Part shown: positions 24,705 through 39,745 of the stretch, in pieces
Numbering within the stretch: position 1 is the first letter of the stretch
Layout of the letters: each line of letters begins with the position of its first letter
Origin: Catenisphaera adipataccumulans
Lineage (GTDB): Bacteria; Bacillota_I; Bacilli_A; Erysipelotrichales; Erysipelotrichaceae
Reading direction: 5' to 3'
DNA: 64,000 nt
Assembly (NCBI RefSeq): GCF_014202755.1
Contig: NZ_JACHHK010000002.1
Location: 248,001-312,000 of the forward strand
Position numbers and translations under genes: made by a program
Notes under the pieces: model-generated
What the model was told of the DNA's origin: nothing
Databases searched by the model: none
The model's input: only the letters and a program-made list of their open reading frames with translations

Positions 24705-24956
24705 ATGTGTTGATGAACAATTCAAAATATAACGTAAGAAAAGCATCATGAATGTGCAATATACTTTTGAATCATTAATATTGTTTACGACCATTAAATT
24801 TATAATAACTGATAAAAAATTTATAAAAGGTGATTATTGATTTGAATAAAGCAATATTAAATTGTGGAAAACCATGGTTAATGTTATACTTATAAAGGTA
24901 TATATAAGCGCATACATTCTACAAAGTATGTGAATTCTTTATGGAGATATAAGACC

Positions 24957-25178
24957 ATGGCAGTAAGCTATAAAAAACTTTGGAAAATGTTGATTGATAA
25001 AGAGATGAAACGTACTGAATTGCGTGATGCAGTGGACATGAGCACCAATACATTGGCAAAGCTGGGGAAAAACGAATATATCTCTTTAGAGATGTTAGAT
25101 AGAATTTGCACATATCTTAACTGTGATATTGGTGATGTAATGGAGATTGTTCCTTCGAAACAAAAGGATAAAGTTTAA
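24957..25178 (+). CDS. Cro/CI-type helix-turn-helix regulator
   Basis: Small DNA-binding protein of 73 aa, one XRE domain (HTH_26/YozG-like): SYKKLWKMLIDKEMKRTELRDAVDMSTNTLAKLGKNEYISLEMLDRI in position for helices 1-4, then LNCDIGDVMEIVP. ATG 24957 follows GGAG at 10 nt; the upstream in-frame start at 24930 has no site. It stands at the left edge of the AT-rich defence island and may regulate the phosphorothioation operon 700 bp downstream; this rests on position only. Confidence 0.85.
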   Translation: MAVSYKKLWKMLIDKEMKRTELRDAVDMSTNTLAKLGKNEYISLEMLDRICTYLNCDIGDVMEIVPSKQKDKV

Positions 25179-25296
25179 TGAACATAGAAGAGTACAGTTC
25201 CAGATCAATGAAATACACATTCTGATTTCCAGCATTTTACCAAGAAATCAAAAGATTACTCTTTGATGAGAATTTATTAAATCTATGATAGCAGCA

Positions 25297-25515
25297 ATCG
25301 TAAAACAATGTACGATACGAAGCAATAAGAGGCAGATCATGTTTAACGAATCGTACGCTGGATAAGGACGACTCCTCACGTATAGGTATTCGTGAGACTC
25401 AGATAATTCCTTATACCGAGAAAAAGACATTTGATAGCTTTTGGTGGCATGGCCCCACCATTTATCAGCCGATAGGTTACGCATCATCGAGATTTGGGAC
25501 GGTTTGAGTCCAAAT
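25297..25515. ncRNA. Candidate structured RNA, four consecutive hairpins
   Basis: Four separate stems occur in 219 nt: ATCGTA/TACGAT (25297-25316); ATAAGGA/TCCTTAT enclosing CTCACG/CGTGAG (25362-25414); TGATA/TATCA enclosing TGGTGG/CCACCA (25432-25467); and ATTTGGGAC/GTCCAAAT with one bulged G (25492-25515). The stretch is richer in G and C than the surrounding AT-rich spacer and holds no convincing protein. The strand is not settled. It could be a regulatory or defence-associated RNA, or the relic of a mobile element. Confidence 0.4.
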
Positions 25516-25893
25516 ACAAACAACTAGCTATAAATAAGCGTAAAACGAAGTGGAATATCTGTTATAAACAAGCAGCTTGTTTTGCTTTTCTAGAATTAAA
25601 TGAATTGTGCGGCACTGTCACGTGTGATAGACTACTTATATTGGCATGTGTCTCATATTAATTGTTTAAAGCTAACATGAATACAATAGATATAGATTAT
25701 AAAAATTAGGTAAATTATTAAAAAAATATAACAGCGCTTTATAGAATAAAAATATTTTTCTATATGTAACTGCAATAATAAAGCTGTTTTAAAAAATTAT
25801 ATAAATCTTGTTTGCATAATTTATAGCATCGTTGTATGGTGGCGAGATATTAAGATATGTCAATCTGAAGCTAAAAAAAGGAGCAATGACAAC
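25516..25893. other. AT-rich leader of the defence operon
   Basis: No gene is seen. An imperfect inverted repeat (AACAGCGCTTTAT at 25730-25742 and ATAAAGCTGTT at 25788-25798) about 100 bp before the first gene may be an operator or weak terminator. The operon promoter presumably lies here. Confidence 0.4.
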
Positions 25894-27612
25894 ATGTGGT
25901 GTAAAAATTGTAATATAGAAACCAATGAAAATAATTGCCCCATCTGCGGAGAAAAAACAGTCGAAGATATACCTACAGAAGTTTATTGGTGCAGTGAATG
26001 TCGTGTGCCGGTCATGCAGGAAGTTACACAGGCTGATAAGGGAATTTGTCCACGATGCGGAAAACATATGAAGCATTTATCGTCCGATATTCGGCCTGTT
26101 TTTCCAGAAGAGAGGTTGTTGATTGAACTAATACTGGATAAGGAACCTTATGAGTGGGCAGAATCTTCGGTATGGGCTTCTAACAGCAGGTATTACATTG
26201 ATGGTAAGTCAGTCGCTTTACCAAGTAAATTTTTTAGGGAAGCAAATGCTGACGGATATATTGAACAACTAAAAAAATATAAAGATAACAATCCACATGA
26301 AGGTTTTAAAAAGTTTATTGATGTTTTTATAGAAGCAAACAAGACACGTCTAGATTATTTGATTGATGAAGCTCATGGATTTATCAAGAAGGCTGCACAG
26401 AAATTCCCAGAGGAAAATATTGTGCTGTCTTTTTCTGGCGGTAAAGATTCTACAGTTACAGCAGACTTAGCTATAAAAGCGTTAAGTGATCCAAGTTTAG
26501 TTCATATTTTTGGTAACACTACACTTGAATTCCCGTTAACGGTTCAATATGCAGAAAGGTACCGTCGAAATCACCCGGAGGCTATTTTTAAAGTTGCAAA
26601 GAACTATGAACAGGTATTTTTAGATGTTTGTGAAGATATTGGGCCTCCTGCTCGAATGATGAGATGGTGCTGTTCAATGTTTAAAACTGGACCTATCACT
26701 AGAGTGATTAACGGACTTTATCGGAATCAACAAATATTGACTTTTTATGGCATCAGAAAATCTGAATCTGCTGCTAGAAGTAAATATAACCGCATTGAGG
26801 ATGATGCAGAGTCAGTCAAGATTCAGCAACAAACCGTAGCCTCTCCTATTTTTTTCTGGAAAGATATGGATATTTGGCTCTATATTTTGTCTGAGAAGAT
26901 TGATTTTAATGATGCATATCGTCTTGGATATGATCGAGTTGGATGCTGGTGTTGCCCGAATAACAATCAAAGGGCACAATTTTTATCGCGAATCTATATG
27001 CCGGAAGAATCTAAACGGTGGCGGAATTTTCTTATTGAATTTGCTAAAAAGATAGGAAAACCCGATCCTGAAGAATATGTAGATTCTGGAGCATGGAAAG
27101 CTAGACAAGGTGGTAATGGATTAGCTGCTGCTGGAGATGTAAAAATACGCTTCACGAATTGTACTACAGAAGATCATGCAAAAATTTATCGTTTAGTTCG
27201 TCCAATGAACGATGAATTTTTAAATATGCTGACTCCGTTCGGACGTGTAGCTCCAGAACTTGGTCAGAAATTATTGAATGAAGTATTGGTTTTAGATGTT
27301 AAAACAAATGTACCGATTTTATCTGTACAACCATTTGAACAAGATGGGTATGAACATGCCGTAAAAGTCCGCACCATGAACGTTTCTAACCATGATAGTT
27401 TGCAACATATGGTTGGATATCAGGTGCGAAAATTTAATGCATGCAGAAAATGTTTGAAATGTGAATCTATCTGTAAGGCTGGAGCAATCTCCATTTCTGA
27501 AGATGGATATCATATCGATCCGCAAAAATGTGTTCATTGCAAAATGTGTGTTACAGCTAAATATTTACGAGGCGGCTGTATGATGGATAAATATTTGCGT
27601 ACGAAAGATTAG
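25894..27612 (+). CDS. sspD: SspD-like PAPS-reductase-family DNA sulfur transferase
   Basis: Predicted ATP-dependent sulfur-activating enzyme of 572 aa for DNA phosphorothioation. Residues 1-60 hold two zinc ribbons (C3/C6/C15/C18 and C33/C36/C52/C55). The PP-loop is SFSGGKDST at about 180-187, followed by cysteines typical of Fe-S PAPS-reductase relatives, RWCCSMF and GCWCCPNN. The C-terminus is a ferredoxin-like domain with CRKCLKCESICK at 517-527 and CVHCKMC at 546-552. DndC and SspD belong to this superfamily, and the extra N- and C-terminal metal domains make this one longer. AAAGGAG precedes the ATG. First gene of a nine-gene operon. Confidence 0.85.
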   Translation: MWCKNCNIETNENNCPICGEKTVEDIPTEVYWCSECRVPVMQEVTQADKGICPRCGKHMKHLSSDIRPVFPEERLLIELILDKEPYEWAESSVWASNSRYYIDGKSVALPSKFFREANADGYIEQLKKYKDNNPHEGFKKFIDVFIEANKTRLDYLIDEAHGFIKKAAQKFPEENIVLSFSGGKDSTVTADLAIKALSDPSLVHIFGNTTLEFPLTVQYAERYRRNHPEAIFKVAKNYEQVFLDVCEDIGPPARMMRWCCSMFKTGPITRVINGLYRNQQILTFYGIRKSESAARSKYNRIEDDAESVKIQQQTVASPIFFWKDMDIWLYILSEKIDFNDAYRLGYDRVGCWCCPNNNQRAQFLSRIYMPEESKRWRNFLIEFAKKIGKPDPEEYVDSGAWKARQGGNGLAAAGDVKIRFTNCTTEDHAKIYRLVRPMNDEFLNMLTPFGRVAPELGQKLLNEVLVLDVKTNVPILSVQPFEQDGYEHAVKVRTMNVSNHDSLQHMVGYQVRKFNACRKCLKCESICKAGAISISEDGYHIDPQKCVHCKMCVTAKYLRGGCMMDKYLRTKD

Positions 27613-27623
27613 GAGGAAAAAAC

Positions 27624-28523
27624 ATGGCCATGAAGTTTCGAGCCCATGAAACATTTTTTATCAGAAAGGGTTGGCTCAGCAAAGGCATGCGATATGTATC
27701 ACAGAAGCCTGATGTTTTTATTGATAAAAACGAAAATCCAATGGATGTTTTAGGCATTGGAACAAACATGGTCAAATCACTCCGTTATTGGCTTCAAGCA
27801 GTTGGATTAACGACTGAAGCATCTAAAGGTAGAAGGGTGCAGACTCTTACTGATTTTGGGCAAATTGTTTATCATCATGATCCTTACACAGAAGAACTTG
27901 GAACACTATATTTAATGCAATATAAACTAGTTTCAAATGAAAAAATGGCTCCATCTTGGTACTATTTTTTCAATATTTTTTCAATGCAAGAGTTTGTAAA
28001 AGATGATTTTGTTGAGCAAATCCAGAATGCTCTTAAAATGCAAGATATGAGTGTGGCTGTACGGTCCCTTGAAGATGACTTTACTTGTATTGTAAATACT
28101 TATGTACCAAAATATAAATCGCATCCATCGAAGAATTCACCTGAAAATAACATTACTTGCCCTTTTGGAGATTTGGGTTTAGTAGATATATTAAATAAGA
28201 AAAGAAAAAATGTTAGTTATAGAAAGGCAATTCCATCAGTAAAAAGCTTTAATCCTTGGGTTGTTATGGCAGTTATTTCTGAACAAGCAAAAGAAAAAAA
28301 AGAGATTAGATTAAATGAATTGTTAACTTCTCCATGCAATATTGGTAAAGTGTTTAACCTTGACTCAATCAGTATGTTGGAGCTTTTACATGAAGTTGAA
28401 AAGCTTGGAGAGATTAAAATTATACGAACGGCTGGACTAGATGTCATTCGTATTAATCATGACCGGACATTTGAAGAATGTGTTGAAAATTATTATGATG
28501 ATATTGAGGGAAGAAATTTATGA
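27624..28523 (+). CDS. sspB: DUF4007 protein, SspB-like
   Basis: Protein of 299 aa with the family opening FRAHETFFIRKGWLSKGMRYV and a basic, helical body including CPFGDLGLVDIL. As I recall, DUF4007 proteins act in SspABCD single-strand phosphorothioation, where SspB nicks the DNA before sulfur insertion; no nuclease motif can be pointed to with certainty here. AGGAGG precedes the ATG, 12 nt after the upstream stop, and the stop overlaps the next ATG by 4 nt. Pairing with a PAPS-reductase-like gene and a cysteine desulfurase supports the call. Confidence 0.8.
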   Translation: MAMKFRAHETFFIRKGWLSKGMRYVSQKPDVFIDKNENPMDVLGIGTNMVKSLRYWLQAVGLTTEASKGRRVQTLTDFGQIVYHHDPYTEELGTLYLMQYKLVSNEKMAPSWYYFFNIFSMQEFVKDDFVEQIQNALKMQDMSVAVRSLEDDFTCIVNTYVPKYKSHPSKNSPENNITCPFGDLGLVDILNKKRKNVSYRKAIPSVKSFNPWVVMAVISEQAKEKKEIRLNELLTSPCNIGKVFNLDSISMLELLHEVEKLGEIKIIRTAGLDVIRINHDRTFEECVENYYDDIEGRNL

Positions 28524-31500
28524 GTAAGATGATAACAGTTGAACCAGGTTTTCAATATTCTGTAAATATTGGATATGATCTTAACAACAATGATAAGTTG
28601 AAAAGCTTCATACCTACTAGATCGTCGCTTGAGCTTTTAAAAGAAATATTGCTGAGTACGAGACAAGACTCGAATGAGAGGTCAAGAGTACTTATCGGCG
28701 CATATGGAAAAGGAAAATCGCACATTATACTTACTATAATGTCTATTTTAATGCAAAAAGATAGAAATCTTTTTGTACATTTAATGCCGAAAATAGAAGA
28801 GAATTTAGAACTTAAGCAACTTGTAGATAATTATTATTCAGATCCTCATAATAAGATTTTTCCAGTCATCATTAATGGCGCAACAACTAGCCTGTCACAA
28901 GCATTTCTACTTGCTTTGCAAAGAACTCTTGACGAAAATAATTTAGATTTAATGCCAGAGACAAATTATGGGGCTGCTATACAAACAATAGAAAAGTGGA
29001 AAGAAAAATATCCTGAAGTTTTTGAAAAGTTCAAAAAAGAAATTAGCGTACCAATTGATCAATTTATCTCTGAACTTGAAGATTACAATGTGGAAATTTA
29101 CCATGAATTTGAAAAGATTTATCCATCTTTAACAGCAGGAAGTACGTTTAATCCTTTTATTGGACTAGATGTAGTCGATTTATATGAAAGTGTGGCTAAG
29201 AGCCTCAAAAAGAGAGGATATCTTGGCATTTATGTGGTTTATGATGAATTCAGTAAATACCTTGAGTCTAATATAACAGAAGCATCAGTAAGCGATACAA
29301 AGATGCTTCAAGATTTTGCTGAAAAATGCAATAGGAGCCATGATGCCCAGATGCATTTACTTCTAATTTCTCATAAAGAAATTTCTAACTATATTGATAA
29401 GCTGCCAAAACAAAAAGTTGATGGATGGCGTGGAGTTTCTGAACGTTTTAAGCATATACATTTAAATAATAATTTTACTCAAACTTATGAGATTATTTCT
29501 TCTGTAATAAAAAAATCACCAAAATTATGGAATAGATTTTGCAATATTCATAAAACGCAATTTGAGGAATTAAATGATCGATATAAAAATCATGCCATGT
29601 TTAGTAATTCTGCTGACAATGAGATTAATATTACAATTTATGGATGCTATCCGCTGCATCCAGTTTCGACATATATTCTGCCACGCTTATCGGAAAGAAT
29701 AGCACAAAATGAGAGGACTCTGTTTACTTTTTTATCTGCGGATGGTCCGTCTACATTGACAGCTTTTCTTAGAAAATATGGAGACAATACTTTTAAGTTG
29801 CTCACTCCTGATTTGATTTTTGATTACTTTGATCCAGTATTTCAAAAAGAACCAATCTCAGGAGAAATATATAAAAATTACATATTAACGAAGACGATAT
29901 TAGAGCAAATTGAGGGCCAAGAATTAGAAACTAAGATCATAAAAACAATTGCGCTAATCTATATGTTAGGACAGTTTGAAATCATTAAACCAACCAAAGA
30001 TGAACTGGTTGGCATTTTTAGCATGGAATATCCGACTGATAGCATCGAAGAGTCTGTTCAGCATTTGATTAAAGATGAATACGTCATTTATTTAAAGCAG
30101 AGCAATGGATATCTCAAATTGAAACAATCTTCTGGAATTGATATTGAGCATAAGATTGAGGACATGATTGCTTCATTAGCAGTTTCATTTTCTTTAAAAG
30201 AAGCATTGAATTCATCCAACGTGGATAATTATTTATACCCGTCAAGATATAATGATGAAAAAGAAATGATTCGATATTTTAAATTCGAGTTTATAGAAGA
30301 ACAGGAATTAATAGAAGACATTGATTGGAATAAAAAATCTGAAAACATTCAAGCTGATGGCATTATTTACGGAATAATTGTGAATAATGGTGAGTCTATT
30401 AAATCCATTAAAGAAAAAATTTTAAAAACGAGCAAAAATACAGAAAGATGTATTTTTATTATTCCGAAGAAAGCAGTAAATATTGAAAAGGTCGTAAAAC
30501 AATATGAAGCTATAAAAATGCTCCGTAATAAAGTTGGGGAAGATTCACTGCTTTTTGAAGAATATGAAGTAATTTATGAAGATCTTCAAGAAGTGATCAC
30601 TAATTTCATTAGAGGATATACACACCCGGAAGAGTACAAGTCTTTGTATATTTATGAAGGAGAAGAGCAAGTAATAGTACGTAAAGCAGAATTAACTGAT
30701 CTTGCGTCGAATATTTGCTATCGGGTATTTTATGATACCCCTGTCATTAATAATGAAGCAATCAATAAAAATGAAATTACATCTATCGCAAGAAAAAGTC
30801 GAAGAAAAATCATGAATGGTTTGCTCAGAAATAGACTTGAGCCGAAACTGGGACTTATTGGAACTGGACAAGAAGTTTCTATATTACGCAGTACCTTAAT
30901 TAGAAAAGAAATTTTTATCGATGATGAATCTGGCGTGAGAATTAATCTGTCACCTTCAGATAATAAAATGAAAAAAGTTCTAGATCATATTGTCGCTTTT
31001 GTTATACAAGCCAAACAATGTGGATATGTACCTTTTTCACAATTATATGATGAATTAATTTCTCCAGAACATCATATTGGACTTCGTAAAGGAGTAATTC
31101 CAATTTATATTGCGGCAGTATTTCACGAATATTATGACGAAATCATAATATTAAATGATTTAGGACAAATTCCATTAACTGCTGATGCTCTACAATCTAT
31201 TAATGCTTCGCCAGATGAATACAAATTAAAGTATTTGGACTGGGATGAAGAGAAGCAGAAATTTGTAACTAATATTGCTGGTATATTTAACCGCTATGTT
31301 ATTGATGCAGAAAAAAGTTTAAGTGCATATGAGTTTGCCTCTTTAGCAATGAAGCGCTGGTTTTTAGCACTTCCAAAATATTCCAAGGAAATAAAGAAGA
31401 TGGGAGATCATCCTGTTGATATTAGGTATAGAAAAATGGCTAAATTGCTAAAACAGAATTTGAGTGGCAACGAACTATTGTTTGAGCGTCTTCCTAAAGC

Positions 31501-32128
31501 TTTTGGATATCAAGAGTTTAGTGAAGGGTTAGCAGAAAATATTGCAGAAGCTAAGCGGTTTTATGATTCAGCTATCAGCAATCTTAAAGAAAAACTGATA
31601 TTAGACACAAAAGAAATTTATTCGATTTCTACTAACAGAGCCAAGCTTCAGAAAAGTTCACTTACATCTATCATTAGAGATTGGTGTGAAACACTTGATG
31701 ATCATGTTTTTGAGCAGTTATTTGATAATGGCACAGATAAATGTTTAGGATTATTTAAGGATGTAACGAATGATGAATATACCTTTATTAATAAACTAGC
31801 AAAAATTGCTACTGGTTTACGAATTGAAGATTGGGATGATGAAACGGAAGAGCGTTTTATTAGTAATTTAAAGCAATATAAAGAAACGGCAGAAAACTTC
31901 CATACACAAGAGCCTCAAGAACGTTCTGAAACAACTGCTGAGTACGAAATTCATTTCCGTTCTGATGATGGTTCTTCAGAAATAAAGCGTTTTGATAGAG
32001 TAGAATCCAGTAAAAAAGGAAAGCTTCTTTACAATTCTATTATGGCTGACATTGATTCCATGGGATATTCAATTTCAGATCAGGAAAAAAGGCAGATTCT
32101 TATGGATATATTGAAAAAAATGTGTTGA
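28520..32128 (+). CDS. sspC: Large ATPase of the phosphorothioation operon, SspC-like
   Basis: P-loop ATPase of 1202 aa. Walker A is IGAYGKGKSH (about 59-68); a Walker B-like IYVVYDEFSKYLE lies near 235-247 and an arginine-rich SERFKHI follows. The N-terminal third resembles the large DNA-associated ATPases of BREX (BrxC/PglY-like), the rest is helical without a motif I recognise, and the C-terminus is acidic and charged. By position between DUF4007 and cysteine desulfurase genes it is the SspC candidate; that it is large and BrxC-like is an observation, the SspC assignment an inference. Start overlaps the upstream stop (ATGA). Confidence 0.7.
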   Translation: MSKMITVEPGFQYSVNIGYDLNNNDKLKSFIPTRSSLELLKEILLSTRQDSNERSRVLIGAYGKGKSHIILTIMSILMQKDRNLFVHLMPKIEENLELKQLVDNYYSDPHNKIFPVIINGATTSLSQAFLLALQRTLDENNLDLMPETNYGAAIQTIEKWKEKYPEVFEKFKKEISVPIDQFISELEDYNVEIYHEFEKIYPSLTAGSTFNPFIGLDVVDLYESVAKSLKKRGYLGIYVVYDEFSKYLESNITEASVSDTKMLQDFAEKCNRSHDAQMHLLLISHKEISNYIDKLPKQKVDGWRGVSERFKHIHLNNNFTQTYEIISSVIKKSPKLWNRFCNIHKTQFEELNDRYKNHAMFSNSADNEINITIYGCYPLHPVSTYILPRLSERIAQNERTLFTFLSADGPSTLTAFLRKYGDNTFKLLTPDLIFDYFDPVFQKEPISGEIYKNYILTKTILEQIEGQELETKIIKTIALIYMLGQFEIIKPTKDELVGIFSMEYPTDSIEESVQHLIKDEYVIYLKQSNGYLKLKQSSGIDIEHKIEDMIASLAVSFSLKEALNSSNVDNYLYPSRYNDEKEMIRYFKFEFIEEQELIEDIDWNKKSENIQADGIIYGIIVNNGESIKSIKEKILKTSKNTERCIFIIPKKAVNIEKVVKQYEAIKMLRNKVGEDSLLFEEYEVIYEDLQEVITNFIRGYTHPEEYKSLYIYEGEEQVIVRKAELTDLASNICYRVFYDTPVINNEAINKNEITSIARKSRRKIMNGLLRNRLEPKLGLIGTGQEVSILRSTLIRKEIFIDDESGVRINLSPSDNKMKKVLDHIVAFVIQAKQCGYVPFSQLYDELISPEHHIGLRKGVIPIYIAAVFHEYYDEIIILNDLGQIPLTADALQSINASPDEYKLKYLDWDEEKQKFVTNIAGIFNRYVIDAEKSLSAYEFASLAMKRWFLALPKYSKEIKKMGDHPVDIRYRKMAKLLKQNLSGNELLFERLPKAFGYQEFSEGLAENIAEAKRFYDSAISNLKEKLILDTKEIYSISTNRAKLQKSSLTSIIRDWCETLDDHVFEQLFDNGTDKCLGLFKDVTNDEYTFINKLAKIATGLRIEDWDDETEERFISNLKQYKETAENFHTQEPQERSETTAEYEIHFRSDDGSSEIKRFDRVESSKKGKLLYNSIMADIDSMGYSISDQEKRQILMDILKKMC

Positions 32129-32140
32129 GGAGATGAAAGA

Positions 32141-33286
32141 ATGGCCTATTTTGATAATGCAGCTACTACATATCCGAAACCAGAATGTGTTTATAAAAAC
32201 ATGGATGAATTCTATCGCTCGGCTGGAGCAAATGCAGGCAGAGGAAACTATCAATTAGCTTTAAGCGCGGGTGAAATGATTGCCGAGACGCGTTCCTTAA
32301 TCCAGGAACTGCTCCATTGTCCAGCAAAGCAAGTGATATTTGAGCCAAATGCTACAATTGCACTGAATTTGATTATTCAAGGAATTATTCTTGATGGAGC
32401 AACGAATGTTTATATCAGTCCATTTGAACATAATGCAGTAACTAGAACGCTTCATCATTTTGAGAAAAATGGTTCGATCAAAGTACATTTATTAAAAGTA
32501 TCAGATGATTTGCAATACGATTTGGAACGGATTCGCTATCAGTTTGATGAAGTTAAACCAGATTTTGTTATTGTTAGCCATGCTAGTAATGTAATAGGCT
32601 TAATTGCTCCAGTTGAGAAAATATTCAATCTTGCAAAAAAATATGGAGCAGTAACCTTAGTTGATATGGCTCAAACTGCAGGATTAGTGGATCTAAACGT
32701 TGGGTTGAGCACGATTGATTTTGCAGTATTTGCTGGACATAAAACACTGTACGGCCCTACTGGTATTTCTGGATTTGTCATGAATCCAGAGAAAAAATTT
32801 CAGCCTGTAATTTTTGGAGGTACTGGATTTGAATCAGCAAATCAGGATATGCCAAATAGTTTACCACAGCGTTATGAAATGGGTACTTTAAATATTTCTG
32901 GAATTTCAGGACTAAATGCAGCACTTAAATGGATTAAGGAAACAACAATAGAAAAAATATGGGATAAAGAGCAGGAACATCGAAATCAATTACTTGATTT
33001 GCTTGCACAGTACCCATTTGTCAGAATTGTTGGAAATTCTAAAGAACGGAGGTATGTAGGAATTGTATCTATATTGATTGAAGGAGTCAGCAGTGATAGT
33101 GCAGGCCCTATATTTGATCGATGTAATGTGGCAGTGCGCACGGGACTGCAATGCGCTCCTTTAGCGCACAAGTTTATTGGCACACATCCTTCTGGAACAA
33201 TTAGATTTAGCGTAAACTATTTTACTTCCGACAAGGATTTTGATGAATTAAAGCAGGCATTGGATTACATTGAAATGGAACTATAG
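32141..33286 (+). CDS. sspA: Cysteine desulfurase, SspA/DndA-like
   Basis: PLP-dependent class V enzyme of 381 aa that removes sulfur from cysteine as a protein persulfide. The fold markers are FDNAATTYPKPE at the N-terminus, SHASNVIG, the PLP lysine in AGHKTLYGP (H200, K201) and the persulfide Cys in RTGLQCAPLAHKF (C338). Housekeeping IscS/SufS enzymes are of similar length, but placement inside this operon points to DNA sulfur modification. Start is 12 nt after the ATPase stop with GAGGAG upstream. Function as a desulfurase is firm; the dedicated partner (SspD) is inferred. Confidence 0.9.
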   Translation: MAYFDNAATTYPKPECVYKNMDEFYRSAGANAGRGNYQLALSAGEMIAETRSLIQELLHCPAKQVIFEPNATIALNLIIQGIILDGATNVYISPFEHNAVTRTLHHFEKNGSIKVHLLKVSDDLQYDLERIRYQFDEVKPDFVIVSHASNVIGLIAPVEKIFNLAKKYGAVTLVDMAQTAGLVDLNVGLSTIDFAVFAGHKTLYGPTGISGFVMNPEKKFQPVIFGGTGFESANQDMPNSLPQRYEMGTLNISGISGLNAALKWIKETTIEKIWDKEQEHRNQLLDLLAQYPFVRIVGNSKERRYVGIVSILIEGVSSDSAGPIFDRCNVAVRTGLQCAPLAHKFIGTHPSGTIRFSVNYFTSDKDFDELKQALDYIEMEL

Positions 33287-33298
33287 AGAGGGTCAATT

Positions 33299-35500
33299 AT
33301 GAGTTTGAAAGATCAGCACATTAAAAGTGAATATCGATCATTGGTAGACAATGTAATTCAAGATTTTTATTTACCGCTTTTACATGAAGCCACTTTATAT
33401 CGTCGTGCGGTAGGTTTCTTTTCATCTTCTTCTTTGATAGAGATATCAAAAGGCGTTGGCGATATGGCACGCAATGGTGGAAAAATTGAAATTATTGCTT
33501 CTCCATACCTCTCTGATGAAGATATTGAAGCGATTCATACAGGTTATGATAATCGAGAAAAAATCATAGAAAATGCCTTAATGAGACAACTGACAGATCA
33601 ATATACAGATTATTTTTCTGTAGAACGATTGAATTTGTTAGCTAATCTTATTGCTGATGGTGTGATGGATATTCGAATCGCATATACTGATAATCATCAT
33701 GGGTTAGGGATGTATCACGAAAAAATGGGCATCATTGAAGATTTCGAAGGTAATCGAGTTGCTTTTTCTGGCTCAATGAATGAGTCACGTACGGCAATGT
33801 CAATAAATTATGAAGCAATTGATGTCTTTTGTGATTGGAGGGGTGAAGAAGCTGAGCGAGTGAATCTTAAGGAAAATGCGTTTACTTCTCTGTGGAATAA
33901 TGTTGAACCAAATCTTCAAGTATTAGAATTCCCTAAAATTTCCAAAGTATTGATAGAAAAGTATCGAAAAAAAGAGCCAAATTTTGATATTGATCATGAG
34001 CAGTTTAGAAAACGTGATAAGATATATGTTGAAACTATGACAAAAGAAGAATGGAAAGTAGCAGAAGCTGGTCCTATTGGACCTAGGGTTCCATATGATA
34101 TTGAACTGCATGATTATCAAAAACAAGCCATTTCAGCATGGGTTGGAGAAAATTATAGAGGAATTTTTGATATGGCAACTGGTACAGGGAAAACTTATAC
34201 AGGACTCGGTGCAATTGCCAAGTTGTCGGAAGATTTACGTGATGATTTAGCAGTTATCATTGTGGCGCCATTTAAGCATCTAGTTGAACAATGGGTAGAA
34301 GATATTCGCCGATTCAATATGAGTCCTATTGTTGCCTATGGTGACCCCGAATACAAAGATTGGAAGAAAAAGCTTTCGAAGGCTGTATTAGATCAGAAAA
34401 TAAGATATGATAAAAAGTTCTTGTGCGTGATTTGTACAAATGCTACATTTACAAACCAATTTCTTCAAGAACAGATTTCAAAAATTAAAGCACCAATTCT
34501 ACTGGTAGTCGATGAGGCTCACAATTTCGGTGCAAAATCATATTCTCGTTTTTTAGATGATCGATTTACATATCGGTTAGCGTTGTCTGCTACACTAGAT
34601 CGCTATCGTGATGAAGAAGGAACTGCTGTCCTATATAATTTCTTTGGAAAAAAGTGCATTGAATATACACTGGAAAGAGCTATTGAAGAAAAGAAATTAA
34701 CGCCTTATAAATATCACCCGATTTTAATATACCTATCTGATATTGAACTTGAATCATATGAAGAACTGTCATATGAGATGTCAAAGTGTCTGATAAAGGG
34801 CAAGGATGGAAAGTATAAACTGAACAAACGTGGCGAGATACTTGCTTTAAAGCGTTCCCGTATTGTAGCAGGAGCTATACAAAAATTAGATGCATTGAAA
34901 AAAGCAATAGAGCCATATAAAAATGACAACAATATTCTTGTTTACTGTGGAGCAACCCGTGTAATCGAAGAAACAGACGATAATCCAGACGATGAAAGCG
35001 ATATACGACAAATTGAAGCAGTGACAAAAATTTTAGGAAACGAATTAGGAATGAGTGTTGCTAGATTTACTTCTGAAGAAAACATGGAACAACGTTCTAT
35101 GATTAAAAAGCATTTTCAGGATGGGGATTTACAGGCAATTGTTGCTATTAAATGTCTTGACGAAGGTGTAAATATTCCAAGTATTCGAACCGCATTCATT
35201 TTGGCAAGTACAACAAATCCGAAAGAATATATTCAGCGCCGAGGACGAGTATTGCGAAAAGCACCAAATAAGTCTTTTGCAGAGATATATGATTTTGTAA
35301 CTTTACCAAGACCTTTGGATGCTGTTTCAGGTTTGACTAGCGAACAAGCAAATCGAGATAAAACATTAGTAGAAAACGAACTTGCTCGGATTATAGAATT
35401 TGGAAGATTAGCAATGAATTCTATGGAAGCGAATAACCTAATCTGGCAAATAAAAGAGGTTTATCATCTTGATGAGATAGAAGAGGAGCAAATGAAATGA
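33299..35500 (+). CDS. PLD-nuclease/SF2 helicase fusion
   Basis: Protein of 733 aa. Residues 1-200 are a phospholipase-D-type nuclease-like domain (ATLYRRAVGFFSSSSL, HEKMGIIED as the HxK motif, GSMNES). Residues about 275-700 are a superfamily 2 helicase: ATGTGKTY (I), DEAHNFG (II), LSATLDR (III), CLDEGVNIPS (V) and QRRGRVLRKA (VI). Such fusions act on DNA in many defence islands. AGAGGG precedes the ATG. It opens the second half of the operon, which fits the place of an attack module like SspFGH, but I cannot assign a letter. Confidence 0.9.
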   Translation: MSLKDQHIKSEYRSLVDNVIQDFYLPLLHEATLYRRAVGFFSSSSLIEISKGVGDMARNGGKIEIIASPYLSDEDIEAIHTGYDNREKIIENALMRQLTDQYTDYFSVERLNLLANLIADGVMDIRIAYTDNHHGLGMYHEKMGIIEDFEGNRVAFSGSMNESRTAMSINYEAIDVFCDWRGEEAERVNLKENAFTSLWNNVEPNLQVLEFPKISKVLIEKYRKKEPNFDIDHEQFRKRDKIYVETMTKEEWKVAEAGPIGPRVPYDIELHDYQKQAISAWVGENYRGIFDMATGTGKTYTGLGAIAKLSEDLRDDLAVIIVAPFKHLVEQWVEDIRRFNMSPIVAYGDPEYKDWKKKLSKAVLDQKIRYDKKFLCVICTNATFTNQFLQEQISKIKAPILLVVDEAHNFGAKSYSRFLDDRFTYRLALSATLDRYRDEEGTAVLYNFFGKKCIEYTLERAIEEKKLTPYKYHPILIYLSDIELESYEELSYEMSKCLIKGKDGKYKLNKRGEILALKRSRIVAGAIQKLDALKKAIEPYKNDNNILVYCGATRVIEETDDNPDDESDIRQIEAVTKILGNELGMSVARFTSEENMEQRSMIKKHFQDGDLQAIVAIKCLDEGVNIPSIRTAFILASTTNPKEYIQRRGRVLRKAPNKSFAEIYDFVTLPRPLDAVSGLTSEQANRDKTLVENELARIIEFGRLAMNSMEANNLIWQIKEVYHLDEIEEEQMK

Positions 35501-35670
35501 GTAATAATGGAGAGTTAGAAATTAATGAAAAAGCGATCGATCGCTTAAAAAAGACTATAGTTATTAAGGAAAATAGAAATTTAAAAACAGGTTCTTTAAG
35601 CGATGCGCAGATGGTTGCATGGATTAAGAAAAAAATTGAGGAGGAAGTCAAATGTTGCTTAAATCAATAA
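35497..35670 (+). CDS. Small acidic/basic protein of 57 aa, unknown
   Basis: A 57-codon gene lies between the helicase and the SMC-like ATPase. Its ATG overlaps the helicase stop (ATGA), AGAGGAG precedes it, and its end overlaps the next start at 35652 by 19 nt, so it is coupled on both sides. The product is helical and charged (KAIDRLKKTIVI; DAQMVAWIKKKIEEE). No family recognised. The tight overlaps make it likely to be translated; a bridging role between the flanking proteins is speculation. Confidence 0.65.
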   Translation: MSNNGELEINEKAIDRLKKTIVIKENRNLKTGSLSDAQMVAWIKKKIEEEVKCCLNQ

Positions 35671-37640
35671 AACTTGAAAACTTCCGACAGTTTAAAAATG
35701 AATCTATTGATTTTGCTCAAGGGCAAGATGGTAAAAATGTAACTATTATTTTGGGAGAGAATGGAACTGGAAAAACAACTTTTGCTCAGGCTTTTTTTTG
35801 GTGTATGTATGGTGAAACCGCATTTTCAGATAAAGTAATGTTAAATAAAAAAGTTGCCGCGGATATGACACCTGGAGAAGAAAAACTTGTTAAGGTTACT
35901 CTTTGTCTTCATCATGGAGAAGTGGATTATAAATTGATTAGAAAACAAGTCTATCACAAGAGTTATTCAAACAATATTAAGGGTGATAATACTGTTTTTG
36001 ATATTGAAACAAAAGATTCTAGCGGGAATACTAGCTATGTAAAAAAATCGCAGTGCGAATTTGAAGTGAAGAAAATTCTTCCAAAAGAATTATCAAAATA
36101 TTTCTTTTTTGATGGCGAACGTATTGAAAAAATGAGTAAAGATATTTCTACAGGGAATAAGTCAAATGATTTTGCAGAAGCAGTGAAGGGGTTGCTTGGC
36201 CTGAATGGAATGATCAGTGCATTGAGTCATTTCAATCCTCGTAACGGTTACGGTGTCATTAGAAGTTATGAAAAATCTTTTAACAGCAAGAGTAATAAAA
36301 AAATAGAAGAATATACACAGATTATTGAAAAGTGTAATAAACGATTAGAAGAAATTAAGGACCAAATTGAAGAATTAGATTCAGAAATAATAGCTGCACA
36401 GACTCGTAGAGATGAAAGGACAGCTGAAATCAAGCAATACGAAGAAGGTAAGAAACTTCAAGAAGAAAAAGAGAAGCTTCAAAAAGAAATCCAAGTTATT
36501 ATCAACTCTCGTGCAAAAGTATATAAAGCAGTTTGTGAAACCTTTAATGTATCGACATATTCTTTTTTCTCGCTTTCTCTAATAAAAAGAGCATTAGAAT
36601 TACTTGCAGATCATGATTTTGGTGGCAAAGATATTCCATTTATGCATCAAAAGACAGTTGAGTACCTGTTAGCAAGAAAAGAGTGCATTTGTGGAACACA
36701 TTTAGATGAAGGTTCAATTCCATACAATAAATTAAAAGAACTTATGAATTATCTTCCACCTAAATCACTAAGCACTACTGTTTTTGATTTTAAAAGAGAG
36801 GCTAAAACGAGGGCTGGTAGATTGAAAAATGTTCATGCAATGATTCAAGAAGATTTAGCCATAATTAGTGAACAGACAGATGAAATTATCGATCGGGAAG
36901 ATGAACTAAACAGGATTGAAAGAAAATTAAGTAGTAAAGATGTACAAGCGAAAGTTAGAACAATACATAATGAGATTCAGCTGTGTAATGAAACAATTAC
37001 AAAGAGCAATATTGCAAGAGATGAACTGAATATAGAGAGAGGCGGTATCGAAAAAGAAAGGAAGCGGGCCGATTCTGAACGAAATAATTTAACTATTTTA
37101 GATGAATCGAATAAAAGGACTCAGATATATTTAAATTATGCAAAGCGTATATATGAAGAACTTGATAATGATTATAAGACTAGTGAGCTAAAAGTTAGGA
37201 CAAAACTTCAAAGTACTATAAATGATATTTTTAAGCAAATTTATGAAGGCGACTTGTCGTTAAATATCGATGAAAAATATCACATAAAGGTACTGGTAAA
37301 TGACTATGAAGGAGAAGTAGAAACGTCGACTGCTCAAAGCATAGCTGTAATATTTGCTTTTATCACAGCAATAATTAAAATGGCAAGAGAGAATCAAAAC
37401 AATGAAGAGAATAAGTTGCTTTCATCAGAACCATATCCGCTCGTAATGGATGCACCGTTGTCTGCGTTTGATAAGAGAAGAATTAAAACAGTTTGTGAGG
37501 CTCTCCCTAGGACGGCAGAACAAGTGGTTATTTTTATAAAAGATACTGACGGAGAACTTGCGGAAAAATATATGGGCGATAAAATAGGCAGCAAGCATCT
37601 GCTTGAAAAAAAGAATGAATTTGAAACAATATTGATTTAA
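35652..37640 (+). CDS. Rad50/SMC-like ATPase, DndD-like
   Basis: ATPase of 662 aa with a split ABC head: Walker A LGENGTGKTTFAQAF at about 33-47, FFFDGERIEKM as the Q-loop-side segment, two long coiled coils, a zinc-hook-like CICGTHLDEGS near residue 355, and Walker B VMDAPLSAFDKRR at about 597. This is the AAA_23/DndD architecture. DndD and its relatives hydrolyse ATP and work with DNA in phosphorothioation and in restriction. GAGGAG lies upstream. Here it follows the helicase in the second module, so a role in cleavage or in modification are both possible. Confidence 0.87.
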   Translation: MLLKSIKLENFRQFKNESIDFAQGQDGKNVTIILGENGTGKTTFAQAFFWCMYGETAFSDKVMLNKKVAADMTPGEEKLVKVTLCLHHGEVDYKLIRKQVYHKSYSNNIKGDNTVFDIETKDSSGNTSYVKKSQCEFEVKKILPKELSKYFFFDGERIEKMSKDISTGNKSNDFAEAVKGLLGLNGMISALSHFNPRNGYGVIRSYEKSFNSKSNKKIEEYTQIIEKCNKRLEEIKDQIEELDSEIIAAQTRRDERTAEIKQYEEGKKLQEEKEKLQKEIQVIINSRAKVYKAVCETFNVSTYSFFSLSLIKRALELLADHDFGGKDIPFMHQKTVEYLLARKECICGTHLDEGSIPYNKLKELMNYLPPKSLSTTVFDFKREAKTRAGRLKNVHAMIQEDLAIISEQTDEIIDREDELNRIERKLSSKDVQAKVRTIHNEIQLCNETITKSNIARDELNIERGGIEKERKRADSERNNLTILDESNKRTQIYLNYAKRIYEELDNDYKTSELKVRTKLQSTINDIFKQIYEGDLSLNIDEKYHIKVLVNDYEGEVETSTAQSIAVIFAFITAIIKMARENQNNEENKLLSSEPYPLVMDAPLSAFDKRRIKTVCEALPRTAEQVVIFIKDTDGELAEKYMGDKIGSKHLLEKKNEFETILI

Positions 37641-37651
37641 GGAGAATGGAA

Positions 37652-38185
37652 ATGTTTGATAAACAATATAGGTTTAAGGGAAAGCACGCTCAACGAGTGG
37701 ATATGCTGACAAGCTCATTTGATGAGATAAGTAGCGCAAAATTGTTTGATCGTAATGTTGACGTCTATATAAATGCTCCTTTGATTGGATTTTTGTATGG
37801 AAGAACAGCAGAACTAGACAATACTAAAAATCCTGAAACGGGTCAAGTTTATACTCAAAATATTATGGGTGATAGGGTTATTTATTCAAGTGAGGAACTG
37901 ATGTTTAATTTTCGTCTCATCATGTTGCTGGACACAAATTATGAGCCAAATGAAGAAAAACGTATTAATAAAGCATTTAGAAATATGGGCGAGGATCCAA
38001 AAGATGAGGAACGTTTTGATAGTTACGTTCGTGGCGGAGTAGATGTACTTTACGAAAAACTAATCGAGGGTTCAAATGAACCAAATGCATATATTTATCG
38101 ATTATTTGATTTTATTGAAGAATTTCAAGAGCGATTTAATAGTGAGATAAAAAGTGAAGATATTTTAAATCTTTGTATGAAGTAG
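37652..38185 (+). CDS. Conserved operon protein, 177 aa, unknown
   Basis: I do not recognise a named family. The protein has FKGKHAQRVDML at its start, then FDRNVDVYINAPLIGFLYGRTAELD, an acidic helical middle (DTNYEPNEEKRINKAF) and a helical end. It is not like DndE, which is shorter and opens with an RVxLS-type helix. The start at 37652 sits 7 nt from AAGGAG; an ATG at 37646 is too close. It follows the SMC-like ATPase by 11 nt and so is probably its partner. Confidence 0.72.
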   Translation: MFDKQYRFKGKHAQRVDMLTSSFDEISSAKLFDRNVDVYINAPLIGFLYGRTAELDNTKNPETGQVYTQNIMGDRVIYSSEELMFNFRLIMLLDTNYEPNEEKRINKAFRNMGEDPKDEERFDSYVRGGVDVLYEKLIEGSNEPNAYIYRLFDFIEEFQERFNSEIKSEDILNLCMK

Positions 38186-38203: not shown

Positions 38204-39313
38204 ATGGGAAGCGACTATAGAGAACAGGCGTATAGCTACCTGATTAAACTATCAGAGCAAAAAGGTTATGTTCTCTTTGATGATATTATGAGCAGTGCTG
38301 ATAGATGGTCTCTTTCCATAGAAGATGTAGATTGGCTTTCAAATACGATTATGATGCGAGGAATTATAGTCTATGATACAGCACCATCAAATATACAAGA
38401 CAGTGATGAATATGATGATTATGCGCAAACTGACTATAATGAGACATTCAAACGAGTAATTGAAATAGATCCTTCATTAAAAGATTTCATATATAAAATC
38501 AAAAATATTAAACCGCCGCAAATGCGTGAAATGGCACAGCTTAAGTATCAGCTTAAAGAAGGAAATGCGTTTGCAAGACAGAGGGTCATTGAAATGCATT
38601 TGCGTATTGCCGTACGTGTTGCCTTACAAAGAGTAAAAGAATATGATTGCGATATGGCAGATACATTACAGGATGCATGCGTTGGCTTGATATATGCAGC
38701 TGATAAATATGATCCGGATTCTAATGGATCTTTTAGCTCATATGCTTCACTATGGATTTTGCAAAATATTTCGAGGACACAAGTATCTCAAAGAGCTCTG
38801 ATATATTATCCTTTTCATAAAAAAGAGAGTTATTTTTCCATATATCCACTATTGAAATCTTTAGGATATGATTATAATGAACTGCTTACGTCTGAAGAGG
38901 TTTTGAAACTTGTTCAAAAAAGACTTAATTGTGGTGTAGAACAAGCAAAAGATGCCATATACCAATGCATACCATTAGAGTCTATTGACACTGCATATAA
39001 AACGTTTATAAAAAGTAATTATTATTCAAAAACAAATAATTACAAAAATAGATGCTTCTGCATAGAGGATTTTTCTGACAGAGTAATTGAAAAATGTGTA
39101 GAAGATGAATTTCAAGAAATTATTAAAATGTTAAAACCTCGGGAACAATTTGTGATTAAGGAAAGATTTGGTTTTGAAGACGGAGATGAAAAAACTTTAG
39201 AAACGGTTGGAAAAATGCTTGGTATCACAAGAGAAAGGGTAAGGCAAATAGAGTCTAGAGCATTGAAAAGATTGAGTGCCATATGCAAAGAAAGAAATTT
39301 TGAGATTTATTGA
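38204..39313 (+). CDS. Sigma-70-family RNA polymerase sigma factor
   Basis: Sigma factor of 369 aa as the last gene of the defence operon. Residues 1-130 form an acidic N-terminal region that resembles region 1.1. Region 2 follows (MHLRIAVRVALQRV, DTLQDACVGLIYAADKYDP, FSSYASLWILQNISR), with a shortened, divergent region 3 and region 4 with TLETVGKMLGITRERVRQIESRALKRL, which would bind the -35 element. The key RERVRQIE motif is intact, so it is probably functional. GAGGG precedes the ATG. It may direct transcription of the operon or respond to phage takeover of the polymerase; neither is shown. Confidence 0.9.
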   Translation: MGSDYREQAYSYLIKLSEQKGYVLFDDIMSSADRWSLSIEDVDWLSNTIMMRGIIVYDTAPSNIQDSDEYDDYAQTDYNETFKRVIEIDPSLKDFIYKIKNIKPPQMREMAQLKYQLKEGNAFARQRVIEMHLRIAVRVALQRVKEYDCDMADTLQDACVGLIYAADKYDPDSNGSFSSYASLWILQNISRTQVSQRALIYYPFHKKESYFSIYPLLKSLGYDYNELLTSEEVLKLVQKRLNCGVEQAKDAIYQCIPLESIDTAYKTFIKSNYYSKTNNYKNRCFCIEDFSDRVIEKCVEDEFQEIIKMLKPREQFVIKERFGFEDGDEKTLETVGKMLGITRERVRQIESRALKRLSAICKERNFEIY

Positions 39314-39745
39314 TGGCTCAGAAAAATATTTTATTTTTTTGTTAGTATTTACTAAGATTTGAAATATCTATATTATCATTTTATTAGTCAGCAGAAAATT
39401 GATTATTTATTATGACAGTAAAAAAAATAGGTTGGAACTAACTTTTATTAATATTTCTATAATTTAAAGAGATAAAGCATTGTCTTTAATTTGACGGTGC
39501 TTTTTTATTTTTAACACTTTTATAAGTGCACTGCCGAATCTATAGATAAAATGAAATGATGTACTTTGTTGCTGTATTGACGTTACTAATAGAAGTATAC
39601 CGAAAAGCGTAATGTGTATTCCAACCTACTTGTTTACCAGGCAATCAAAGTTTAGAAATTGTTCAGATTTGACTAAACGCAAATTAATATCTGTCTTCTA
39701 TAGTATGGATGATCTGATAGGAGATCTATACATGGAGGTATGGAT
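39314..39745. other. Intergenic end of the defence island
   Basis: No gene is seen apart from the terminator at 39474-39512. The base composition returns from AT-rich to the level of the main chromosome near 39.7 kb. I found no clear direct repeat or attachment site. Confidence 0.5.
39474..39512 (+). terminator. Rho-independent terminator
   Basis: An 11-bp stem (AAAGCATTGTC / GACGGTGCTTT with two T-G pairs) and a T-rich tail lie 160 nt after the sigma factor and end the defence operon. Confidence 0.75.

Follow-up and report, generated by a model that had tools for sequence, protein, structure and literature searches.

The 64,000-nucleotide stretch of the Catenisphaera adipataccumulans genome analysed here (contig NZ_JACHHK010000002.1, positions 248,001 to 312,000; hereafter the window) raises the question of why a gene for a sigma-70 factor stands at the end of a defence operon. 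According to the original prediction, based on the sequence alone, this factor could switch the operon on, guard the polymerase against phage takeover or postpone restriction until modification has taken place, unless it is simply a chance neighbour.

Operon around the sigma gene and its known relatives

The sigma gene (hereafter Pbe-sigma) lies 18 nt behind PbeD and is followed by a terminator-like hairpin, and these two features identify it as the last gene of the operon, exactly where the original prediction had placed it. The features recognised in and around the operon, in which all genes are co-directional and separated by gaps of -19 to +18 nt, are as follows:

24862..24890, forward strand: candidate promoter of the operon, TTGTGG-17-TATACT, with TGT before the -10 hexamer (an extended -10 site of housekeeping type), located upstream of the VanU/XRE gene
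24957..25178, forward strand: gene for an HTH regulator of VanU/XRE type with 73 aa (VanU model of NCBIfam at 1.2e-28, under its cut-off)
25894..27612, forward strand: PAPS-reductase-like protein SspD/BrxP, predicted phosphorothioation (Pfam PAPS_reduct 2.5e-31; PADLOC BrxP 6.2e-82; SGGKDS motif)
27624..28523, forward strand: SspB-like DUF4007 protein (Pfam DUF4007 1.8e-83; PADLOC SspB 1.2e-58)
28520..32128, forward strand: SspC-like ATPase (PADLOC SspC 3.1e-131)
32141..33286, forward strand: cysteine desulfurase SspA/DndA (TIGR01977 over cut-off; PADLOC SspA 7.3e-47)
33299..35500, forward strand: PbeA, PLD-like domain and SF2 helicase (PADLOC PbeA 4.4e-247; Pfam ResIII, Helicase_C and PLDc_2)
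35497..35670, forward strand: PbeB, small protein of 57 aa overlapping both neighbours (assigned by position and size only)
35652..37640, forward strand: PbeC, CxC-type ABC ATPase (PADLOC PbeC 3e-109; Walker A; CIC at residue 345, CxC Zn-hook)
37646..38185, forward strand: PbeD, DndE cognate (assigned by position)
38204..39313, forward strand: Pbe-sigma, sigma-70 protein of 369 aa with ATG start (open reading frame, Pfam, structure matches, alignment, AlphaFold model); region 1.1 at about 1-62, regions 1.2-2.4 at about 103-195, then region 3, and region 4 at about 305-360
39474..39503, forward strand: terminator-like hairpin after the sigma gene (from sequence)

Judged by gene content, the operon is composed of a predicted Ssp-type modification half (25894-33286) and a predicted PbeABCD restriction half (33299-38185), followed by the sigma gene. 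Homologues of SspA, SspB, SspC and SspD all occur together, and phosphorothioation is predicted from these genes. The earlier description of a DNA-modification operon is thus corrected to one with both modification and restriction genes, to which the small PbeB gene (35497-35670) and the VanU/XRE gene upstream are added. PbeA matched TIGR04095 at 1.1e-155, below the cut-off, and a search for the exact HxKx4D motif in this protein gave no match, its PLD-like nuclease being predicted by domain. The position of PbeB agrees with the available text of PMC6459918 and PMC10853773. The PADLOC model of PbeD matches three of 24 aligned homologues (best 4.6e-5), the PbeD of the window not being among them. 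No homologue of DndFGH or SspFGH was found among the PADLOC families listed for the ten proteins scanned, and no Rfam family was found in the window.

Both halves have well-described counterparts. In the accessible portions of PMC6459918 and PMC10853773, PbeABCD corresponds to the CxC ABC ATPase-DndE systems, consisting of a PLD-helicase PbeA, a small PbeB, a CxC-type PbeC and PbeD, and the window has these genes in identical order. It differs from them in two respects: known PbeABCD sets accompany Dnd-type modification genes, whereas here the partner is of Ssp type, and a sigma-70 gene is present, whereas none is reported for PbeABCD in those portions. The archaeal PbeABCD with demonstrated protection lacks a sigma gene, as far as the available text of PMC6459918 goes; the word "sigma" is absent from that text and appears once in that of PMC10853773, with reference to DndH, some members of which contain a sigma-related HTH. 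Whether Pbe modules cut DNA is a matter of dispute in the accessible parts of these two sources. Like SspABCD and type-4 BREX (PMC8092258, PMC12839542), the window contains SspD/BrxP, a DUF4007 SspB, an SspC ATPase and a cysteine desulfurase, the difference residing in the restriction partner, which is PbeABCD plus sigma instead of SspE, SspFGH or PglZ/BrxL. PMC12839542 describes a domain resembling a sigma HTH for BrxL, and one resembling alpha-CTD for PglW. The MZA system likewise includes a sigma-70 protein, MzaA, which matches over sigma regions 2-4; however, MzaA models are 683-726 aa long and the match is limited to their C-terminal third, whereas Pbe-sigma has an N-terminal region 1.1 and Ssp/Pbe neighbours. 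The operon falls outside MZA, with an MzaA score of 117 bits against a cut-off of 800 and with no match to MzaB-E among the ten proteins scanned. Searches of openly available article text revealed no known sigma factor in Pbe, Ssp or Dnd operons, and PADLOC shows none in Pbe systems. PbeABCD and Ssp are known systems, and a sigma factor as a part of Pbe is provisionally considered new.

Distribution and inheritance of the sigma gene

Scanning genome contigs for PbeA recovered 41 loci, 37 of them with the position behind PbeD covered by the contig. The sigma gene is present in 27 of these 37 evaluable relatives and lies downstream of PbeD in 26, at times with one small gene between, the sole exception being locus L025, where it is upstream of the operon. 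Locus L039 has a region-1.1 fragment only, at the contig end. None of the further Pbe loci recovered elsewhere contains it: ten obtained with a PbeD profile from about 400 genomes of the window's class, five from family and order searches, and five from a similar sample of Clostridia. The original prediction had taken the gene for a chance neighbour should relatives of the operon usually lack it; relatives within its clade usually have it, while more distant Pbe operons are without it. The sigma gene is not universal, being confined to one clade of Pbe modules and missing from more distant ones.

Lachnospiraceae, Oscillospiraceae and further Bacillota make up most of the carriers, and one record each bears the label of Bacteroidota, Alphaproteobacteria and Methanobrevibacter. 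The last of these (L030; G789:C132) belongs to a genome without any other sigma-70 region 2. An archaeal host was rejected for this locus, as its flanking GNAT gene occurs in 0 of 59 other Methanobrevibacter versus 19 of 60 Lachnospiraceae genomes, and it was taken as binning contamination of bacterial source. Region-1.1 matches in five other genomes were likewise set aside, as they are RpoD proteins encoded beside dnaG and not Pbe-sigma. Among mobile elements, PbeD gave no match against plasmids and viral contigs; its one match was to an unannotated "phage" scaffold with an Ssp-Pbe set, which yielded no sigma gene.

The sigma gene is inherited with the restriction genes. When mapped on the PbeC tree (52 loci, including 28 carriers with the window), its presence requires two changes, whereas shuffled labels average 17.5, and one clear loss (L021) falls inside the clade of carriers. 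Three changes are required on the PbeA tree and eight on each of the SspC and desulfurase trees. Across 19 sigma-positive loci, sigma distances correlate with those of PbeC (r = 0.92), PbeD (0.91) and PbeA (0.85), and to a lower degree with those of the modification proteins (PAPS reductase 0.46, DUF4007 0.52, SspC 0.60, desulfurase 0.64). Cases of exchange between the halves are consistent with this pattern: L030 has distant Ssp genes and close Pbe genes and sigma, while L046 and L052 combine close Ssp genes with distant Pbe genes and lack sigma. The few changes on the PbeC tree, together with distances that track PbeC and not the 5' genes, assign the sigma gene to one clade of restriction modules, and show it to be a conserved gene of the restriction half, with a single origin. 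Since adjacency alone would tie it to PbeD, this linkage is no proof of a function inside the effector.

Sequence and fold of Pbe-sigma

The original prediction that regions 2 and 4 are intact, including RERVRQIE, was confirmed: both exceed their Pfam cut-offs (Sigma70_r4 2.1e-15, Sigma70_r2 7.7e-10) and TRERVRQIE is found in the protein. The Pfam match of region 1.1 (Sigma70_r1_1) is weak, at 9e-4. NCBIfam places the protein with RpoD-type sigmas, SigA and RpoD are the closest solved chains, and its AlphaFold model, with a mean pLDDT of 80.9, finds its matches among sigma factors. Pbe-sigma combines regions 1.1, 2 and 4, by which an RpoD-type (primary-like) sigma is recognised.

Residues were compared among 27 Pbe-sigma homologues in E. 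coli numbering. The -35-reading residues R584, E585, R588 and Q589 are conserved in 26-27 of 27, W434 in 25, Q437 in 26, R441 in all 27 and H455 in 24, and position 458 is E or D in 25. At the polymerase-contact positions of region 2.2, position 403 is D or E in every homologue and Q406 is kept in 17. The window copy carries W433L and T440S, and across the homologues W433 is mostly replaced by leucine and T440 is variable. As the alignment shows, Pbe-sigma keeps the residues by which primary sigmas read the -35 and extended -10 elements, plus part of the polymerase-binding ones, and its residues are compatible with predicted holoenzyme formation and transcription start.

Regions 1.1, 2 and 4 are common to Pbe-sigma and RpoD/SigA, its nearest solved relatives. 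Unlike RpoD, the Pbe-sigmas are encoded in defence operons and form a single clade separate from seven RpoD proteins (support 100), and a PPQ motif of their own marks region 1.2; this region and region 3 are unlike those of RpoD, yet conserved inside the family. A C-x2-C...C insert, possibly metal-binding to judge from its cysteines, was observed in region 3 of 15 of 28 Pbe-sigmas (e.g., L020, L033 and L050), and is found neither in RpoD nor in the window copy. Two incomplete copies were encountered, one without region 4 (L014) and one without much of region 3 (L036).

The N-terminal domain, modelled alone, has as its best match region 1.1 of B. subtilis SigA at Z 7.5, a moderate match given that unrelated folds reach Z 6.5. 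Its sequence profile also recovers true rpoD genes beside dnaG. A domain of this type heads separate proteins encoded beside the sigma gene in L018 (14924-15481) and L013 (15168-15737), both with DUF4357 over cut-off and weak RAMA, and also in L050 (14952-15461) and, weakly, in L025 (15421-17097, with LRR_5). That region 1.1 is found on readers besides sigma suggests a possible docking on something that the operon proteins share; since ordinary primary sigmas also use region 1.1, docking need not be its task in Pbe-sigma.

Slot, leader and possible role of Pbe-sigma

Where the sigma gene is missing, the slot after PbeD may harbour other proteins with RNA-polymerase-like domains. Loci L046 (14911-17649) and L052 (14903-17620) encode proteins of 905-912 aa with two alpha-CTD domains and sigma region 4, the latter over cut-off in L052, and a distant Clostridia locus (L119:3945-7949) encodes a 1334-aa alpha-CTD and sigma region 4 protein, the gene of which overlaps the start of PbeA. 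No description of such large proteins was found in the accessible text of PMC6459918 and PMC10853773. The slot contains a PC4 protein and an alpha-CTD protein in L053, and a PC4-like protein just below cut-off in L086; the remaining slots contain GmrSD_N (L021), HNH_4 (L091) or uncharacterised proteins without visible polymerase link, or are empty. The slot is a variable accessory position, in which RNA-polymerase-like DNA-binding domains are recurrent, not exclusive.

At the opposite end of the operon, a VanU/XRE-like gene lies immediately upstream of the PAPS-reductase gene in many relatives. In the window their cotranscription is only putative because about 715 bp separate them, while in several relatives they adjoin; this interval (25179-25893) is AT-rich, contains no conserved gene and may be an insertion remnant. 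The candidate promoter has the best score (9.5) in the 160-nt leader, which 22 of 100 shuffles equal, making it weak alone. Upstream of the VanU/XRE gene, extended -10 sites of sigmaA type occur in sigma-positive L013, L016, L017, L018, L023 and others, with equivalent ones in sigma-less L052 and L053; their location is roughly constant, and each is weak alone. The search suggested originally for a shared -35/-10 element upstream of the operon yielded, in the leaders compared, no element specific to sigma-positive loci, the housekeeping-type site being common to both groups. A palindrome, GTCC-N8-GGAC, was observed upstream of the PAPS-reductase or VanU/XRE gene in L018, L019, L027, L029, L030, L035, L041, L049 and L053, with no copy close to the operon start in the window; it was rejected as a sigma-specific promoter because L053 lacks sigma, and for the same reason it is probably a VanU/XRE operator.

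Our favoured reading, a tentative one to which we give somewhat less than even weight, is that Pbe-sigma serves as an accessory subunit by which the Pbe effector reads promoters or polymerase. It would be a dedicated subunit of one PbeABCD clade, made from a captured primary (RpoD-type) sigma: its region-1.1 domain would dock on the PbeA-D complex, its body would read promoters, alone or with core polymerase, and the helicase-nuclease would be loaded on DNA that bears promoters or polymerase and has no phosphorothioate marks, or be licensed by such DNA. This is the simplest reading that covers the linkage to the effector, the kept promoter-reading residues, the shared region 1.1 and the RNA-polymerase-like alternatives; the many slots that are empty or hold proteins without visible polymerase link count against it. 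The subunit would be dispensable to the Pbe core, since most Pbe modules not belonging to the clade (15 loci from the window's class and five from Clostridia) and the protective archaeal PbeABCD do without it. A bolder proposal, which we regard as rather doubtful, is promoter-guided or transcription-coupled restriction, by which a phosphorothioate-sparing complex would find invading DNA via the captured sigma, the alpha-CTD/sigma-4 and PC4 proteins being alternative transcription readers in sister systems. Sigma in one clade and RNA-polymerase-like proteins in sister clades point to transcription or the polymerase as the thing sensed or used, which bears on self/non-self discrimination by Pbe modules and on the timing of their attack; if true, this would be a rare reuse of a primary sigma as part of an immune effector, not as a regulator.

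The residues that argue for a promoter-reading subunit (intact -35, extended -10 and most -10 positions) would equally serve a true alternative sigma, transcribing either the operon, as positive feedback, or a small regulon, e.g., under phage inhibition of RpoD; the sigmaA-like extended -10 promoters of relatives' leaders could be read by such a factor, and MzaA is annotated as the sigma factor of another defence system. We nevertheless find this explanation rather unlikely. Leaders and promoters of like kind occur in sigma-less relatives, the gene comes last in the very unit to be switched on, the slot alternatives with alpha-CTD or PC4 are not sigma factors, and the lack of linkage to the 5' half disfavours a sigma dedicated to the promoter located there. 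The operon-switch role advanced originally thus keeps little force, sigma following the restriction genes and the VanU/XRE leader with its housekeeping-type promoter being shared by loci with and without it. The delay of restriction until modification keeps little force too, as the two gene sets are co-directional and so closely spaced that no separate restriction promoter is evident.

Divergence could instead point to a guard or decoy, a mimic of primary sigma on the Pbe complex, which phage anti-sigma or polymerase-takeover proteins would bind, releasing the effector. Region 4 of Pbe-sigma is as similar to that of host RpoD (0.57) as it is within the family (0.54) while other parts diverge, and Pbe-sigma is the most divergent of the proteins compared (mean distance 0.59 versus 0.31-0.48), as expected in an arms race; but the promoter-DNA contacts in regions 2.4 and 3.0 are kept beyond the needs of a protein decoy, and we consider it improbable. 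A similarly low probability is given to sigma domains acting, without polymerase, as mere sequence-specific DNA-binding modules of the restriction complex. What the slot alternatives have in common is indeed DNA-binding modules (alpha-CTD HhH, sigma region 4, PC4), not polymerase function, and the sigma-like HTH parts reported in some DndH and BrxL, in the accessible text, would fit, although the partly kept polymerase contacts of region 2.2 would then be unexplained. Chance neighbourhood or a decaying RpoD duplicate, to which the sigma-less distant Pbe loci and the incomplete copies in L014 and L036 could be referred, is very improbable, being already contradicted by the PbeC tree, the distance correlations and a single-origin sigma clade retained with restriction genes across several Bacillota families and a few records of other phyla. 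Long inherited with the restriction half, the sigma looks like an unrecognised part of the weapon, not a chance neighbour.

Besides Pbe-sigma, the genome of the window contains two RpoD-like sigmas (L001 and L002; open frames of 377 and 381 aa on contigs C3 and C4), one of which could represent a further sigma type or a contaminant.
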